A stretch of DNA of 62,401 nt from a bacterium (lineage in GTDB: Bacteria; Verrucomicrobiota; Kiritimatiellia; CAIKKV01; CAITUY01): assembly GCA_037143175.1 (NCBI GenBank), contig JBAWZF010000015.1, positions 1 to 62,401 on the forward strand, given 5' to 3'. The notes under the pieces are model-generated. The model saw only the letters and a program-made list of their open reading frames with translations. It ran no database searches and had not been told where the DNA came from. Below are positions 9,606-18,048 of the stretch, piece by piece (the first letter of the stretch is position 1; every line of letters starts with the position of its first letter). The position numbers and the translations under genes are program-made.

Positions 9606-9643
9606 GGCCAGAACGGACACCGGAAAATCAGGTCCGTCTGGCC
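9606..9643. terminator. possible convergent hairpin at radical SAM / gltD junction
   Basis: GGCCAG-A-ACGGAC (9606-9618) pairs with GTCCGT-CTGGCC (9632-9643), giving 12 pairs with one bulged A and a 13-base loop. It lies at the convergent junction of two genes and overlaps the last codons of gltD. There is no T-run on either strand, so it may only be a weak bidirectional terminator. Confidence 0.35.
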
Positions 9644-11064
9644 TCAAGATAAGCAGCAATCCCGGCCGCCGCTTGTCGACCATCACGCATGGCTCGAACC
9701 ACGAGCGAGGCTCCTTGCGTCATGTCGCCTGCCACGAAGATACCAGGGATATTGGTCATATTCTGCTTGTCGCGCCAGATCACCCCATTGGGCTCTGTCT
9801 TGATAGCAAGCCCCTCCACAATTTTATTGCGCCCGGGTCCTGAAAAGCCCATCGCCAATAAAACAAGATCTGCTTCTATTACAAACTCAGTACCGGGTTT
9901 TTCCACCATAGCTGGCCGTCCACCACCCGCCGGGGTAACCCAATCCACCTCCACCGCCCGAATTGACTGAACGGCCCCATCCTTGCCAGAAAATTCTTTG
10001 GTCGCCACGCTCCACCGCCGGGTACAGCCTTCTTTATGACTGCTTGAAATCCGTAACTGCAACGGCCACATAGGCCAGGGAGTACTCTTAGCCCGAGTGG
10101 GAGGAGGCTGTGGCAGAATCTCAATCTGTGTCACAGACTTGGCTCCTTGCCGGATCGAAGTTCCAACACAATCCGCGCCCGTATCCCCTCCGCCAATCAC
10201 CAGCACATTTCTGTCACCGGCCAAAATATCAGTACCGACCTTGCCCCCCTCGCCCCCCAACCGTTTGTTCTGCTGCACCAGGAAGTCCATGGCAAAATGA
10301 ATCCCCTTTAACTCCCGCCCCGGCACCTTGATATCACGGGCTTCACGGGCACCACCGGAAAGGCAGATGGCGTCAAATCGATTTTGAAGGTAGTGATAGG
10401 AAATGTCATCCCCTACACTGACCTGATTCTCAAACACAACGCCTTCCGCCTCCATTAACTTTATCCGGCGATCCACGACCCATTTCCCAAGCTTAAACTC
10501 CGGAATACCGTATCGCAGGATGCCTCCGGGTCTTTCATCCGCATCATAAACCACAACCCAATAACCAGCGTGATTCAGCGTATCGGCGATCGTCAATCCG
10601 GCGGGACCAGAACCAAGCACCGCAACCCGCTCTTTTTTACGTTCCGCTGGCGGGCAGGGCTTCATATATCCCAACTCAAAGCCTTTTTCGATGATCGACA
10701 ATTCGATTTGCCGGATGGTCACCGGATCCTTGTTGATTCCCAACACGCAAGAACCTTCACAGAGTGCGGGGCAGATACGCCCAGTAAACTCTGGAAAATT
10801 ATCCTTCTCCAGTAGAATATCCAACGCCTGCTTCCAGCGGCCCTGATACACATGCTCATTGAATTCAGGAATCACATTCTCGATCGGGCATCCTGTGCAA
10901 TGGCAGAACGGCGTCCCGCAATCCATACACCGCGCCGCCTGCTCCCTCACCTCAGAGTCCGACAACCGGAGTTCCACCGCATTGAAATCCTTCACCCGTT
11001 CATCAATTGGACGATAGCCAGGGTCGTGGCGTTCAAATTCCATAAAACCGGTTACCTTACCCAT
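9628..11064 (-). CDS. gltD: glutamate synthase (NADPH) small subunit
   Basis: A 478-residue beta subunit that passes electrons from NAD(P)H through FAD and iron-sulfur clusters to GltB for making glutamate from glutamine and 2-oxoglutarate. The N-terminal cysteine-rich segment (CMDCGTPFCHCTGCPIENVIP) is the Fe-S region. VAVLGSGPAGLTIA is the FAD-binding and VIGGGDTGADC the NADPH-binding Rossmann motif, and GIFVAGDMTQGASLVV closes the FAD site. AGAGGTGA precedes the ATG. The gene overlaps the gltB end by 8 bp. Confidence 0.97.
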   Translation of the reverse strand: MGKVTGFMEFERHDPGYRPIDERVKDFNAVELRLSDSEVREQAARCMDCGTPFCHCTGCPIENVIPEFNEHVYQGRWKQALDILLEKDNFPEFTGRICPALCEGSCVLGINKDPVTIRQIELSIIEKGFELGYMKPCPPAERKKERVAVLGSGPAGLTIADTLNHAGYWVVVYDADERPGGILRYGIPEFKLGKWVVDRRIKLMEAEGVVFENQVSVGDDISYHYLQNRFDAICLSGGAREARDIKVPGRELKGIHFAMDFLVQQNKRLGGEGGKVGTDILAGDRNVLVIGGGDTGADCVGTSIRQGAKSVTQIEILPQPPPTRAKSTPWPMWPLQLRISSSHKEGCTRRWSVATKEFSGKDGAVQSIRAVEVDWVTPAGGGRPAMVEKPGTEFVIEADLVLLAMGFSGPGRNKIVEGLAIKTEPNGVIWRDKQNMTNIPGIFVAGDMTQGASLVVRAMRDGRQAAAGIAAYLEARRT

Positions 11065-14000
11065 GAATCACCTCTGCTCTTTCGGTCGCTTCATCTTCTC
11101 TCATCATCTGCCCCATCACCCGGCGATATTCCATCGGGAATACCTTGATGAAAAATGGCAGCTGTTCTTCCCAATTCTCCAGAATGCGTTTGGCTTTAAG
11201 ACTGCCCGTGTAGCGCAGATGCTTCTCCAACAATCCTCTCAGTTCAGCTTTATCAGCAGAGCTTACCACGAGCTCCAAATCCACCATGTCTAAATTACAG
11301 CGTGCGTCAAAAATACGGTGCTCATCATAAATATAGGCAAGACCACCACTCATTCCGGCCCCGAAATTGACACCGGTATGTCCCAGCACCACCACACGAC
11401 CGCCGGTCATGTATTCACATCCATGATCACCGATCCCTTCAACGACGGCGGTGGCACCACTGTTACGAATGGCAAACCGTTCACCAACAGCTCCGTTGAG
11501 ATAGACCTCACCACAGGTTGCCCCGTATAACAGAACGTTCCCGGCGATGACATTTGACTCCGGGGCATACGTCGCGGCGGCGAAGGGCCTGACAATGATT
11601 TTGCCACCCGACAATCCCTTCCCGAGGAAGTCATTAGACTCCCCTTCCAGGACAAGTGTCATTCCCCGGGCACACCAGGCCCCGAAACTTTGTCCAGCCG
11701 AGCCCTTAAAAGTCATGGTGATCGTATCCTCCGGCAGTCCGGAATGGCCATATTTTTTGGCCACCAACCCGGCAATCATCGTGCCCACGGTTCGATTCAC
11801 ATTCCGGATCGGCGCCTCAAGTGATACCGGCTTTCCGGTTTCAATGGCCGCCTTCACTTTGGGGATCAACTTCAAATCCATGGCACTACTTAATTCGTGG
11901 TTCTGCTTCCCGACACAGCGGACAGGGCTATTGCATGGGGGGCGGTAAAGTATCTTGGAAAAGTCCAAGCCCTTCGCCTTCCAGAAGGTGATCGCCTGAT
12001 TCATTTCAAGACAGTCTGAGCGACCGATCATTTCATCGATGGTACGGAAGCCCAGTTCCGCCATGATCTCACGCACCTCACTGGCGATAAACGTGAAGAA
12101 GTTGACGAGATGATCCGGACTCCCGGCAAACAATTTGCGCAAACATGGATCCTGTGTTGCGACCCCAACCGGACAGGTATTGTTATGGCACTTGCGCATC
12201 ATGATGCAACCCAGAACCACCAAAGCGGTGGTCGCGAAACCATATTCTTCCGCCCCCAACAAGGCGGCCACAACCACATCGCGTCCAGTTTTAATCTGCC
12301 CATCCGTCTGCAACCGTACCTGGCCCCGCAAATTATTCAACACCAGTGTCTGCTGGGTCTCCGCCAGACCAAGCTCCCAGGGCGCACCGGCATGCTTGAT
12401 GGATGACAACGGCGAGGCGCCCGTTCCGCCATCATAGCCACTGATCAAAACCATATCCGCGTGGGCTTTTACGACACCCGCGGCAATCGTACCCACCCCG
12501 AGCTCAGAAACCAACTTGACCGATACCCGTGCTTCAGGGTTGACGTTTTTTAAGTCGTAGATCAACTGCTTGATATCTTCAATAGAGTAAATGTCATGAT
12601 GCGGTGGCGGGGAAATCAAAGTAACTCCAGGCGTCGAGTGACGCACCTTGGCAATTTCCTCATTCACTTTATGACCGGGCAACTGTCCGCCTTCGCCCGG
12701 CTTGGCACCCTGGGCAATTTTGATCTGAAGCTCACGACAGTTAACACAGAATTCAGCCGTGACACCAAACCGTCCACTGGCGATCTGCTTGATGGCACTG
12801 CAGCGACTGTCACCGTTGGGAAGAGGCTGATAGCGCGCAGGGTCTTCGCCGCCCTCACCACTGTTACTCATGGCTCCTAACCGGTTCATCGCAATGGCCA
12901 TCGACTCATGGGCTTCCCGACTGATCGACCCGAACGACATCGCGCCGGTCACAAACCGCTTCATGATTCCGCCCACCGGCTCGACTTGATCCAAAGGCAC
13001 CGGAGCGCCTGGCTTAAACTTGAACATTCCCCGCAAGGTGAACTGCTTCTCAGCCTGGTCATTAATCAACCGCGCATAATCTTTATACCGCTTTACATCG
13101 CCGCTACGGGTGGCATGCTGAAGATGGGTAATCGCTTCCGGAGACCAAAGATGTCGCTCCCCGTCCCGCCGAAAACGATACTGGCCCCCCGTCGGCAAGA
13201 ACTCAGGTTTCGCTTCGACGTTGTAAAATGCCTCCGCATAACGTGCATTTGCTTCCATCGCAATTTCGGATAGCCCAATGCCGCCGACACGGGAAGCCGT
13301 CCCTGAAAAGTAATGTTCCACAACGCCCGGGTCAATGCCAACTGCCTCAAAGACCTGAGCGCTACGATAACTTCGCAACGTTGAGATCCCCATCTTCGAC
13401 ATCACTTTCCGAAGCCCCTCACACAAGGCGCCAACATAATTTTCCATCGCTTTGGCGGGCCCGACCTCCGCACTCAACTCTTTCTTGAGGGAAAGATCCG
13501 CGATGGACTCAAACGCAAGATAGGGATTAATTGCCGTGGCCCCGTACCCGAGCAAAAGTGCCATATGCATGACTTCACGGGCTTCACCGGTTTCAACAAG
13601 CAGCCCCACACCGGTACGACGGCCGCTCCGCACCAGATGCTGATTAACGGCGGCAACGGCCAATAAAACAGGAATGGGTGTAACCCCGGCCATCAAATCA
13701 CGATCACTCAAAATGAGAAGGTTTTTACCTGCGGCAACCCGTGCATCTGCATCCCCACACAACGCCTCCAATGCCGCCTTCAAGTCAGCACCCGAGCCGT
13801 TCGCCGGGAATCCGATAGAGAGCGTAGCCGCGCTGAAATCCTTGAGCTCGAGCCCACGGATCTGATCCAGATCTTCATTTGAAAGAAAGGGATGTCGCAG
13901 TTTAATCAAACGCGCGTACTGCGGGATTTCCATGAGAATATTGGAAGGATTGCCGATAAACGTCATCAACGACATCACCAGTTCCTCCCGAATCGGATCG

Positions 14001-15580
14001 ATCGGCGGGTTGGTGATCTGGGCAAACAGCTGCTTGAAATAAGAAAATAGCAGTTGGGGCTTATCTGAAAAGACCGCCAAAGGAGTATCCGTCCCCATGG
14101 AGCCCACAGCCTCATGCGCTTTGGACGCCATCGCCTCCAGAAGAATTTGGACATCTTCACGCGTATACCCGAAAAGACGCTGCCGCTGAAGCAGAGTCTC
14201 GGATTTCGGAATGACTGGGGACATGGCTTCAAACATGCCTTGCACCGAGACCTTATTTTCATCCACCCAGCGCCGATAGGGTTGACGCCGCGACATCTGG
14301 CTTTTAAGCTCTTTGTCCTTCAGAACCCGTTTGTGCTCAAGATCAATCAACATCATTTGGCCGGGGCGCAACGCCCCCTTCTCCAATACGCGTTCGGCTG
14401 GAATATCAAGAACACCCGCCTCTGAGGCCATCACAATAAAATTATCCTTTGTGATGGTATAACGAGCCGGTCGCAATCCATTCCGGTCAAGCAGGGTTCC
14501 CACCACGGAACCATCCGAGAAAGCCACCGTAGCCGGTCCATCCCAAGGCTCCATCAAACCGGCATGGTATTCAAAAAAACCTTTTTGATCGGGGCCAATG
14601 GGATATTTTGCACCCCACGCTTCAGGAATGAGCATCATCATCGAATGCGGGATTGAGCGCCCGCCGGCTACCAAAAGCTCCAGCGCATTATCCAAACAGG
14701 CCGAATCACTTCCTCCGGGATCAATAATGGGAAGCAACTTGCGAATGTCGTCCCCAAATAGCGGCGAGGCCAGCCCATTCTCGCGGGACTTCATCTGATT
14801 GAGATTTCCACGGAGTGTATTGATCTCGCCATTATGGGCCAGAAAACGAAATGGCTGTGACAACTCCCAGGACGGAAATGTATTAGTGCTATAGCGCTGA
14901 TGAATCACTGCTACTGCGCTCTCCATGTCCGGATCATTCAAGTCCTTATAAAACCCGGAAACCTGCCCACCCATCAACAACCCTTTATAAACAATCGTCC
15001 GTGAGGAAAAGCTGGGGATATAAAAGCGCTCATCGGGCCCCATGATTTCCGCAACCCGGTGCTGGCACTGTTTGCGGACCACATAAAGTCTGCGATCCAG
15101 CGCCAGACATGACAATTTTCCACCCCCGACCAAGACCTGCATCACAAAAGGTTGTGCCTCACGTGCCTCTTCCCCGAGGATACTCCCGTCAGTCGGGACT
15201 TCGCGCCAGCCTATGAACTCCAGACCTTCTTCCTGAAGCACCTGCTGAATGGCAGAGAGGCAATGAGAACGAACCTTCGACTGGGGTACAAAAAGCATTC
15301 CCACGCCGTATGACCCCGCCTTGGGCAAAGTGAACTTGAGACGTGCGGCTTCCTTGCGGAAAAATTTATCAGAAATCTGCAGCAATACCCCCGCCCCATC
15401 TCCGGTACTCAAGTCACCCCCCACGGCACCTCGGTGCAAAAGATTCTTAAGAACCTCGATACTGTCGGATACGATACGATGCGATTGAACCCCGTCAATA
15501 TTGGCGAGAAATCCTACGCCGCAATTATCGTGTTCATTTGCAGGGTCATACAACCCTTGTTGTTCAGGCATTCCATTCAT
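11057..15580 (-). CDS. gltB: glutamate synthase large subunit
   Basis: About 1507 residues. The enzyme cleaves glutamine in an N-terminal Ntn-type glutaminase domain and transfers ammonia internally to 2-oxoglutarate on an FMN barrel. Cys20, within DNCGVGFLANIDG, is the expected nucleophile exposed after propeptide removal. The FMN/3Fe-4S region contains CIMMRKCHNNTCPVGVATQDPC, and the C-terminal beta-helix has the G-rich GXXGG repeats. The ATG at 15580 is chosen because AAAGGGGA lies before it and the short propeptide is then normal. An in-frame ATG at 15646 would run across the upstream terminator. Confidence 0.96.
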   Translation of the reverse strand: MNGMPEQQGLYDPANEHDNCGVGFLANIDGVQSHRIVSDSIEVLKNLLHRGAVGGDLSTGDGAGVLLQISDKFFRKEAARLKFTLPKAGSYGVGMLFVPQSKVRSHCLSAIQQVLQEEGLEFIGWREVPTDGSILGEEAREAQPFVMQVLVGGGKLSCLALDRRLYVVRKQCQHRVAEIMGPDERFYIPSFSSRTIVYKGLLMGGQVSGFYKDLNDPDMESAVAVIHQRYSTNTFPSWELSQPFRFLAHNGEINTLRGNLNQMKSRENGLASPLFGDDIRKLLPIIDPGGSDSACLDNALELLVAGGRSIPHSMMMLIPEAWGAKYPIGPDQKGFFEYHAGLMEPWDGPATVAFSDGSVVGTLLDRNGLRPARYTITKDNFIVMASEAGVLDIPAERVLEKGALRPGQMMLIDLEHKRVLKDKELKSQMSRRQPYRRWVDENKVSVQGMFEAMSPVIPKSETLLQRQRLFGYTREDVQILLEAMASKAHEAVGSMGTDTPLAVFSDKPQLLFSYFKQLFAQITNPPIDPIREELVMSLMTFIGNPSNILMEIPQYARLIKLRHPFLSNEDLDQIRGLELKDFSAATLSIGFPANGSGADLKAALEALCGDADARVAAGKNLLILSDRDLMAGVTPIPVLLAVAAVNQHLVRSGRRTGVGLLVETGEAREVMHMALLLGYGATAINPYLAFESIADLSLKKELSAEVGPAKAMENYVGALCEGLRKVMSKMGISTLRSYRSAQVFEAVGIDPGVVEHYFSGTASRVGGIGLSEIAMEANARYAEAFYNVEAKPEFLPTGGQYRFRRDGERHLWSPEAITHLQHATRSGDVKRYKDYARLINDQAEKQFTLRGMFKFKPGAPVPLDQVEPVGGIMKRFVTGAMSFGSISREAHESMAIAMNRLGAMSNSGEGGEDPARYQPLPNGDSRCSAIKQIASGRFGVTAEFCVNCRELQIKIAQGAKPGEGGQLPGHKVNEEIAKVRHSTPGVTLISPPPHHDIYSIEDIKQLIYDLKNVNPEARVSVKLVSELGVGTIAAGVVKAHADMVLISGYDGGTGASPLSSIKHAGAPWELGLAETQQTLVLNNLRGQVRLQTDGQIKTGRDVVVAALLGAEEYGFATTALVVLGCIMMRKCHNNTCPVGVATQDPCLRKLFAGSPDHLVNFFTFIASEVREIMAELGFRTIDEMIGRSDCLEMNQAITFWKAKGLDFSKILYRPPCNSPVRCVGKQNHELSSAMDLKLIPKVKAAIETGKPVSLEAPIRNVNRTVGTMIAGLVAKKYGHSGLPEDTITMTFKGSAGQSFGAWCARGMTLVLEGESNDFLGKGLSGGKIIVRPFAAATYAPESNVIAGNVLLYGATCGEVYLNGAVGERFAIRNSGATAVVEGIGDHGCEYMTGGRVVVLGHTGVNFGAGMSGGLAYIYDEHRIFDARCNLDMVDLELVVSSADKAELRGLLEKHLRYTGSLKAKRILENWEEQLPFFIKVFPMEYRRVMGQMMREDEATERAEVIHG

Positions 15581-15613: not shown

Positions 15614-15642
15614 AAAAAACCCGTCGGGATTTTCCCGACGGG
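15614..15642 (-). terminator. rho-independent terminator between glnN and gltB
   Basis: A perfect 10-bp stem CCCGTCGGGA/TCCCGACGGG (15620-15629 / 15633-15642) with a 3-base loop is followed on the minus strand by six T. It lies downstream of glnN and upstream of gltB. It should end most glnN transcripts and could allow limited readthrough into gltBD or act as an attenuator. Confidence 0.88.
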
Positions 15643-15673
15643 GCATCGTTTATGTCAATACTAACACTTCTAA

Positions 15674-17797
15674 TCAACGATAGAACAACATATCGGCATA
15701 AGTCGGCAGCGGCCAATATTCGGCATCCACAACCGGCTCAATCCCATCCGAGACCATGCGCAAGGCAACCATAGCTGGCACGACAACGTCCCGGAAAGCC
15801 ACAGCCTTCTTACCCACGGCCGACTCTGCGGACGCTACGGAAACCACATCCGCCAACACATCAATCGCCAGACTCATATCCGCCGCCGCATCATTCACCT
15901 GCTGCAACAGTTTTGACTGAGCAACAGCGTCCACCCCGGCCGCCTCAACCGCAGTCACGCCATGAGCCAGATCCGTCGCATAACTTATAAGTGATGGGAG
16001 AATCTCGCGGCGAGCCATGAACAACATGGTCTTAGCTTCAATGTTAATGGTCTTGATGTAATTCTCCAAAAGGATTTCATGACGCGCATGAATTTCCTCT
16101 TTGGGGAGGGTGCCGTGTTTCATCATCACTTTGGCGTTATTCTTCTCCATCATGACGTTAATGCCGTCCACACAATTCCGGATGTTGTGCAGACCCCGCT
16201 TTTCAGCCTCTGCAACCCATTCTTGAGTATAGTTATCGCCATTGAAGATAATCGCTTCGTGTTCCTTGGCGTATTTCTGAAGCAGCGCCTGTACGCTCGA
16301 ATTGATGTTCTTGGCTCCCTGCAGTTCATCCGCGATTTCAGATAAGGCCTCCGCGACAATCGTATTCAGCACAAAGTTCGGACCGCTCAGGGACTGTGAA
16401 GACCCCGGCATACGAAATTCGAACTTATTTCCGGTAAAGGCAAACGGAGAAGTCCGATTACGATCCGTGGTATCCATGGGAATAGCCGGAAGCGTGGTGA
16501 CGCCCAACTGCAAACGCCCGCCCTGCTTCGAACTGCTTGCGGCACCTTTCTTGATCTGCTGATAAATGTCCGTCAGCTGGTCGCCCAGGAAGATCGACAC
16601 AATCGCAGGTGGCGCCTCATTGGCGCCCAGGCGATGGTCATTGCCCGGTGTCGCCACCGTCGCACGCAACAGGTCGGCATATTTATGTACCGCACGAATC
16701 GTGGCAAACAGGAACACAAGGAACTGCATGTTGTCATGCGGCGTGTTCCCAGGATTCAACAGATTAATCCCGTCATCCGTGCACAATGCCCAGTTGTTGT
16801 GCTTGCCCGACCCATTGACGCCCGCAAAAGGTTTTTCATGCAACACACAGACAAAGTTATGTTTGCGTGCGATCCGCTGCATCATTTCCATGGCCAACTG
16901 ATTATGGTCCACACCGATGTTTACCGTGGCATAAACGGGAGCAAGCTCATGCTGTGCAGGGGCCACCTCGTTATGCTGAGTTTTGGCCGACACACCCATC
17001 TTCCAAAGCTCATCATTCAGATCCGCCATGAATGAAGCTACACGCTCATGAATCGCACCAAAATACTGATCTTCCAGTTCTTGCCCTTTGGGTGGAGGCG
17101 CACCGAATAAGGTGCGGCCAGCATACCGTAAATCCGCACGTTTTTCAACAAACTGCCGGTCAATCAGGAAATATTCCTGCTCGCCACCGAGCGTTGTGAT
17201 CACACGCTTACTCGTGTCGTTGCCCAGGGCTTTCAAAACACGCATTCCCTGCTTATTCAAAACCTGCATCGAACGCAACAACGGCGTCTTTTTATCCAAC
17301 GCCTCCCCCGTATAGGACGCAAAAGAAGTGGGAATGAACAAAGTGGTATTCGAGCCATCGGTCTTGACGAAAACCGGCGAGGTGCAATCCCACACGGTAT
17401 AACCACGTGCTTCAAAAGTTGCCCGGATTCCTCCTGACGGAAACGACGACGCATCGGGTTCGCCCTGCGTCAATTCTTTGCCACTGAATTCCATCATGAT
17501 CCGTCCGTCCGCAGTCGGGGAAATGAACGCGTCATGTTTTTCCGCGGTGATACCAGTCATAGGCTGGAACCAATGGCAATAATGCGTAGCCCCCTTCTCA
17601 ATCGCCCAATCTTTCATGGCGTTAGCCACAACATCAGCAATGGTGGGATCCAACTCCTTGCCTTCGTCAATGGTCGCTCGCAACTTTTTGTAAACATTCT
17701 TAGGGAGACGCGCACGCATCACCACATCACTAAAAACATTCGATCCAAACATTTCCGGGAGGGATTGTTTTTTTACTGAATCACAACAATCATTCAT
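15674..17797 (-). CDS. glnN: glutamine synthetase type III
   Basis: A 707-residue enzyme that makes glutamine from glutamate, ammonia and ATP. The size (about 700 residues, not about 450) and sequence such as [32 protein letters not shown] and the catalytic stretch [17 protein letters not shown] mark the GSIII family. [16 protein letters not shown] and the C-terminal helical region are complete. AAGGAG lies 11 bases before the ATG. Together with gltBD downstream it forms the GS-GOGAT ammonium assimilation route. A sigma-54 type promoter element upstream indicates nitrogen-limited expression. Confidence 0.97.
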
Positions 17798-17855
17798 ATA
17801 TATAGGCTCCTTTTTGTTATTCTAAAAACCAACCCAAAACTTGAAATTTTTATTT

Positions 17856-17871
17856 AGCAGGTACTGTGCCA
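17856..17871 (-). promoter_or_regulatory. sigma-54 (-24/-12) promoter of glnN
   Basis: Read on the minus strand the element is TGGCACAGTACCTGCT, against the RpoN consensus TGGCACG-N4-TTGCW. The invariant GG (-24) and GC (-12) are present at exactly the required spacing, and only two consensus positions differ. The predicted transcript would start near 17845, about 48 bases before the glnN ATG. The 200 bp beyond it toward 18100 are AT-rich and could hold enhancer sites, but I see no clear NtrC palindrome. Confidence 0.8.
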
Positions 17872-18048
17872 AAATTATTTATTCATTCCGCAACCACTTC
17901 AAATACAATACCTAACGATTGATTACAAAATTAAAGAACACTCGAAACAATGCACGTTAACTACAATTTTGTAACAATACATTGCTCGGTAATGCAAGTT
18001 TGTAGCACCCTGAGCCAGTTCAATCCTCTCTATCTCAAGCGTCACATA

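Follow-up and report, generated by a model that had tools for sequence, protein, structure and literature searches.

The glnN gene in the stretch of DNA analysed here (the window, 62,401 nucleotides) raises the question of whether a type III glutamine synthetase (GSIII) is placed under sigma-54 control and, if so, by which activator. The first-pass annotation had proposed a −24/−12 promoter before this gene, served by RpoN and an NtrC-like enhancer-binding protein. The identity of the gene itself was verified by its domains: glnN (15674 to 17797, minus strand) encodes a full GSIII of 707 amino acids with GSIII_N, Gln-synt_C and Gln-synt_C-ter (PF12437, PF00120, PF18318), and its ribosome-binding site AAGGAG can be read directly from the sequence at 17807 to 17812 of the same strand. 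It is followed, likewise on the minus strand, by an intrinsic terminator with a 10-pair stem and TTTTTT (15620 to 15642), by gltB for the large subunit of glutamate synthase, assigned by domain matches (11057 to 15580), and by a gltD-like gene for the small subunit (9628 to 11064; Fer4_20, Pyr_redox_2). For gltB the start at 15580 was preferred over the mechanical open reading frame start at 15646, because the latter lies upstream of the terminator stem. The GSIII of near relatives (L044 to L051) often opens with a cysteine pair, as in MNDCCDS, MNGCCES, MNCCCET and MSCCCES (17780 to 17797 in the window), which was not seen in distant class members.

The promoter element TGGCACAGTACCTGCT was confirmed on the minus strand at 17871 to 17856, with a gap of 58 bp to the gene. 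It has GG at −24 and GC at −12 in the right spacing and agrees with the strongest consensus except for an A instead of G at position 7 and a C instead of T at position 12. With the −12 at 17857, the geometry of the element alone predicts a transcription start at 17845, 12 nt after the −12 C, which is the position given by the annotation; the predicted leader up to the ATG at 17797 comprises 48 nt. An Rfam scan gave no match at the promoter. Nowhere else in the window is TGGCAYRNNNNNTGCW matched exactly. Since sites with at most one mismatch to TGGCAYRNNNNNTGCW are found there at chance level (seven versus eight expected), the exact match alone is weak evidence. This count, together with a weak sigma-70-like site at 17902 to 17874, would be compatible with a chance match of the 16-mer and a housekeeping promoter for glnN. 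However, sigma-70-like sites around the promoter are no commoner than in shuffled sequences, and the sigma-54 site is kept in diverged intergenic DNA across the class, with linked dyads, which renders such a coincidence hardly credible.

This conservation emerged from the comparison of orthologous upstream regions. The genome carrying the window (G000; 3.3 Mb, 107 contigs, 95% complete) belongs to a class with many families. Sigma-54 sites were scored with our own simple weight matrix, using a threshold of at least 13 and 600 bp upstream of the gene in relatives. As relatives, 29 further genomes were searched, and 22 of them have a site reaching the threshold before glnN. Among these 22 are the three remaining members of the family and, within the genus, each of the four further members in which a glnN gene could be located. 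In G021 no site lies close to glnN; the gene follows amt and a P-II gene there, and the promoter precedes amt. The conservation before glnN lifts the match beyond chance, and we read TGGCACAGTACCTGCT as a real sigma-54 promoter. For comparison, 78 GSIII genes were taken from other named organisms, mostly Firmicutes; sites of at least 13 precede four of them when 400 bp upstream are considered instead of 600 bp, and sites of at least 14 precede two, versus 0.3 expected, in this shorter upstream window. Outside the class, sigma-54 sites were found before GSIII genes in an Omnitrophota and a Sedimentisphaerales member and, weaker, in Nitrospirae. Being common in the relatives and rare in the 78 other genes, sigma-54 control seems to characterise the GSIII genes of this class and a few others, and not GSIII genes in general. 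Among the papers searched, none joins GSIII and sigma-54, and nothing was found to contradict the remark that this form of control is little documented for GSIII.

The presence of RpoN could be established directly: rpoN is found in G000, and the encoded protein has an intact RpoN box (ARRTVAKYR). In addition, nine proteins of this genome carry a strong sigma-54 activation domain, one of them cut by a contig end.

Sites at which such an activator could bind became apparent upstream of the promoter, where a conserved palindrome is visible in the aligned glnN regions. In the window it occurs as a proximal dyad TACAAAATTGTA at 17962 to 17973 (centre −122.5), an exact TAC-N6-GTA, and, 31 bp further away, a distal dyad TACAAACTTGCA at 17993 to 18004 (centre −153.5). 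Dyads of 4+4 with gaps of 0 to 14 were counted without bias upstream of the sigma-54 sites of glnN and amt in near relatives, and ACAA-N2-TTGT came out top for both genes separately (4 of 10 glnN regions and 6 of 15 amt regions). Taken together, it occurs in 10 of 25 regions versus 0.23 expected, and the maximum for any dyad in 100 shuffled sets was 4. The positions −153.5 and −122.5 are shared by G004 and the glnN of G000, and several amt promoters carry dyad pairs 29–30 bp apart. The count was repeated independently on 13 distant members of the class with a GSIII identity of only about 52–57%, and the same two dyads rank top upstream of glnN; ACA-N4-TGT is present in 11 of the 13 regions, in six as pairs 31–33 bp apart. 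Two regions, those before the G003 glnN and the G049 amt (L197), show no clear dyad when up to two mismatches to the consensus are allowed. Overall the dyad reads TAC/GAC-N6-GTA/GTC and corresponds to an operator of AnfA type, with partial sites in several genomes. With rpoN present, the promoter conserved and an activator dyad shared upstream, the proposed RpoN-dependent control of glnN appears well supported at the level of sequence comparison.

A dimer site of this size is compatible with several regulator families. In principle, the dyads could thus bind an unrelated repressor or activator, with the sigma-54 promoter served by an activator bound elsewhere. We regard this as very unlikely, since a tandem arrangement around −120 and −150, with a spacing of about three turns, is typical of enhancer sites such as those of E. 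coli glnA, and since the dyad not only fits the AnfA operator but co-occurs with a linkage of NifA-type genes to glnN and amt.

Among 29 sigma-54-like sites in G000, the one at glnN alone has a dyad upstream, whereas the other 28 are without; amt1 has a TGGTAC-type site and falls outside this list. The dyad pattern alone proved uninformative genome-wide (16 sites versus 18 for the control; 26 versus 23), so that its combination with a sigma-54 site was needed. Dyad and sigma-54 site at the right distance gave 37 matches in 11 genomes versus 5 for the reversed pattern as control, and 24 of the 37, by our own count, are located at glnN, amt or, in G021, a GSI gene. In G000 exactly two matches remain, glnN and amt1-glnK. 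Both amt genes of this genome are followed by P-II genes. The GSI-type glutamine synthetase gene of G021 (L306:922-2409, contig C106) likewise has a sigma-54 site upstream, together with a pair of dyads spaced by 31 bp; as it carries both promoter and dyads, the regulon is not tied to GSIII.

Upstream of amt2 (L170:3715-4080, G000 contig C32; orthologues L185, L191 and L192), the element TTGGCACGGANNNTGGTA is common to four genus members. Its −24 part is perfect, but the most invariant promoter base is altered, with GG instead of GC at −12, and the alteration is kept between species. The amt2 promoters also have upstream dyads, in three of the four as a pair 29 bp apart. Other sigma-54-like sites of G000 (L175 and L176 on C63 and C67; L173) stand before the gene of a histidine kinase of PrsK type (above the TIGR02916 cut-off, with a PrsR-like regulator adjacent), before genes of secreted proteins and before a type IV pilin-like gene that adjoins its own activator. 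A further site (L270, G000:C51:4646-4661) is found some 200 bp upstream of a gene for an agmatine/peptidyl-arginine deiminase (PAD_porph), with no nearby dyad; this gene is a possible nitrogen-scavenging target.

As candidate for the activator we identified a GAF-AAA+-HTH protein of NifA type, encoded on contig C14 (G000:C14:43401-45020). Its loop of GAFTGA type reads GSFTGA, which is listed among the variants that would keep function (PMC4641369). With 520.3 bits the protein scores slightly below the equivalog cut-off for NifA (528.85), and it is 41–43% identical to a plasmid-borne NifA and to a Nitratidesulfovibrio activator. Orthologues are near full-length in nine of ten relatives and present as a contig-end fragment in the tenth. 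Uniqueness by phylogenetic profile had to be dropped as an argument, since the near relatives keep two other activators almost as widely; the assignment of the activator hence relies on linkage and operator. In G000 the gene adjoins neither glnN nor amt. A gene of this type adjoins amt in six near relatives (G001, G003, G005, G021, G022 and G049), and it is located at most 5 kb from glnN in 7 of 15 distant relatives, among which no other activator type was repeatedly found near glnN. The gene order is EBP-amt-glnK-glnN-gltB-gltD in G036 (EBP, enhancer-binding protein), and in G026 glnN is followed by one gene, the EBP gene, amt and a P-II gene. In four distant relatives (L358, L364, L365, L366) the gene between glnN and the GAF activator gene resembles, to judge by its N-terminus alone, a glutamine-dependent NAD synthetase.

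Two further roles of the C14 protein were considered and rejected. Autoregulation in G000 was dropped because the dyad upstream of the activator gene sits in a copy of a dispersed repeat (contig C7, E 1e-36) and is a false operator match; this repeat has no match in the regions of glnN and amt1. On contig C7 (L256, G000:C7:76000-82800) the repeat is 194 nt long and present four times at distances of 1.2–1.7 kb, and the copy before the activator gene is related to these. A function as nitrogen-fixation regulator was discarded since no nifH over cut-off was detected in 11 genomes.

The expectation of an NtrC-like activator found no support. None of the enhancer-binding proteins exceeds the NCBIfam cut-off for NtrC (best score 446.9 versus 558.6 bits), the dyad does not resemble the NtrC operator with its TGCAC-type half sites, and the gene travelling with amt and glnN encodes a GAF-type, NifA-like activator. 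If an NtrB/NtrC-like two-component pair nevertheless activated glnN, the best candidate would be a response regulator on contig C13 with an adjacent PAS histidine kinase. Its receiver-AAA+-HTH architecture and its orthologues in nine of ten relatives agree with such a role. On the other hand, the best NtrC score quoted above is that of this very protein, which scores higher to AtoC, itself below cut-off; its gene is located near an apparent type IV pilus cluster, as read from open reading frame starts; and, unlike the GAF protein, activators of this kind do not recur next to glnN or amt. We consider activation by this pair unlikely. From gene linkage and operator similarity, the glnN activator is most likely a relative of NifA and AnfA and not a textbook NtrC.

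We propose that the sigma-54 promoter of glnN would be opened only when an enhancer-binding protein occupies the two tandem dyads about 120 and 150 bp upstream, with the consensus T/G-ACA-N4-TGT-A/C. This protein would be the GAF-AAA+-HTH activator of contig C14, for which we infer dyad binding, and it would also drive amt1-glnK and probably amt2-glnK. Its GAF domain may sense the nitrogen status, perhaps via PII or 2-oxoglutarate as in NifA and AnfA, and glnN would be induced under ammonium limitation. With the same activator for amt-glnK and glnN, uptake (Amt), nitrogen signalling (PII) and assimilation (GSIII) would form one regulon. Comparison between genomes strongly supports the promoter and the shared dyad, including how the dyads are spaced and how specific they are, and it shows that the activator gene is linked to amt and glnN. 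The scheme as a whole, in which sigma-54, tandem dyads and the C14 activator would run glnN, amt1-glnK and probably amt2-glnK, appears highly likely to us, and the glnN promoter very probably switches on GSIII when ammonium is scarce. With somewhat less assurance, we favour the wider view that an activator of NifA/AnfA type with a GAF domain and an AnfA-type operator is the main regulator of nitrogen assimilation throughout the class, replacing NtrBC; such regulators may have governed ammonium assimilation before some of them were taken over for nitrogenase, or the reverse may apply. The initial suggestion that RpoN and NtrC control GSIII thereby turns into a concrete predicted regulon, consisting of sigma-54, a NifA/AnfA-type activator without nitrogenase, a defined operator, GSIII and ammonium transport. 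It also assigns targets to a kind of protein so far known as Aquifex Nlh1 and provides a clue to the origin of nitrogen-fixation activators.

Among known systems, glnAp2 of E. coli with NtrB/NtrC is similar in that a sigma-54 promoter precedes a glutamine synthetase gene and paired activator sites lie about three turns apart. The locus described here differs in the enzyme class (GSIII), in the operator, in a GAF instead of a receiver domain and in the lack of an NtrC over cut-off. Outside enteric bacteria, an RpoN promoter supported by primer extension was reported upstream of glnB-glnA in Geobacter sulfurreducens (PMC2725144), likewise before a glutamine synthetase operon, but in a different lineage and with glnA in place of a GSIII gene.

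The domain order of the C14 activator is that of AnfA, VnfA and NifA. AnfA binds two tandem TAC-N6-GTA dyads, NifA TGT-N10-ACA and VnfA GTAC-N6-GTAC (PMC7294313). The proximal glnN dyad TACAAAATTGTA fits the AnfA operator and not that of NifA, and as with AnfA two tandem operators stand upstream of the sigma-54 promoter. Unmodified PII inhibits AnfA, apparently via its GAF domain (PMC12093980); as both amt genes are followed by P-II genes, an AnfA-like control by PII is a plausible model here. In contrast to these activators of nitrogenase genes, the proposed targets are glnN and amt-glnK. Oxygen-sensitive NifA and AnfA have cysteine clusters, whereas the cysteine motif, located in the interdomain linker of NifA and in or before the GAF domain of VnfA and AnfA, is absent from the C14 activator. 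Besides the score below the NifA cut-off, its recognition helix reads TTQR compared to TPRQ or TTRQ in the NifA sequences examined. A close parallel is found in Nlh1 (NifA-like homologue 1) of Aquifex aeolicus, likewise a sigma-54 activator with GAF-AAA+-HTH order, whose GAF domain (4g3k) is among the solved structures matching that of the C14 protein. According to a review (PMC9866876), it has been speculated that Nlh1 governs the assimilation of nitrogen and not its fixation; the present case offers defined target promoters, a defined operator and a defined linkage to amt and to a gene for GSIII.
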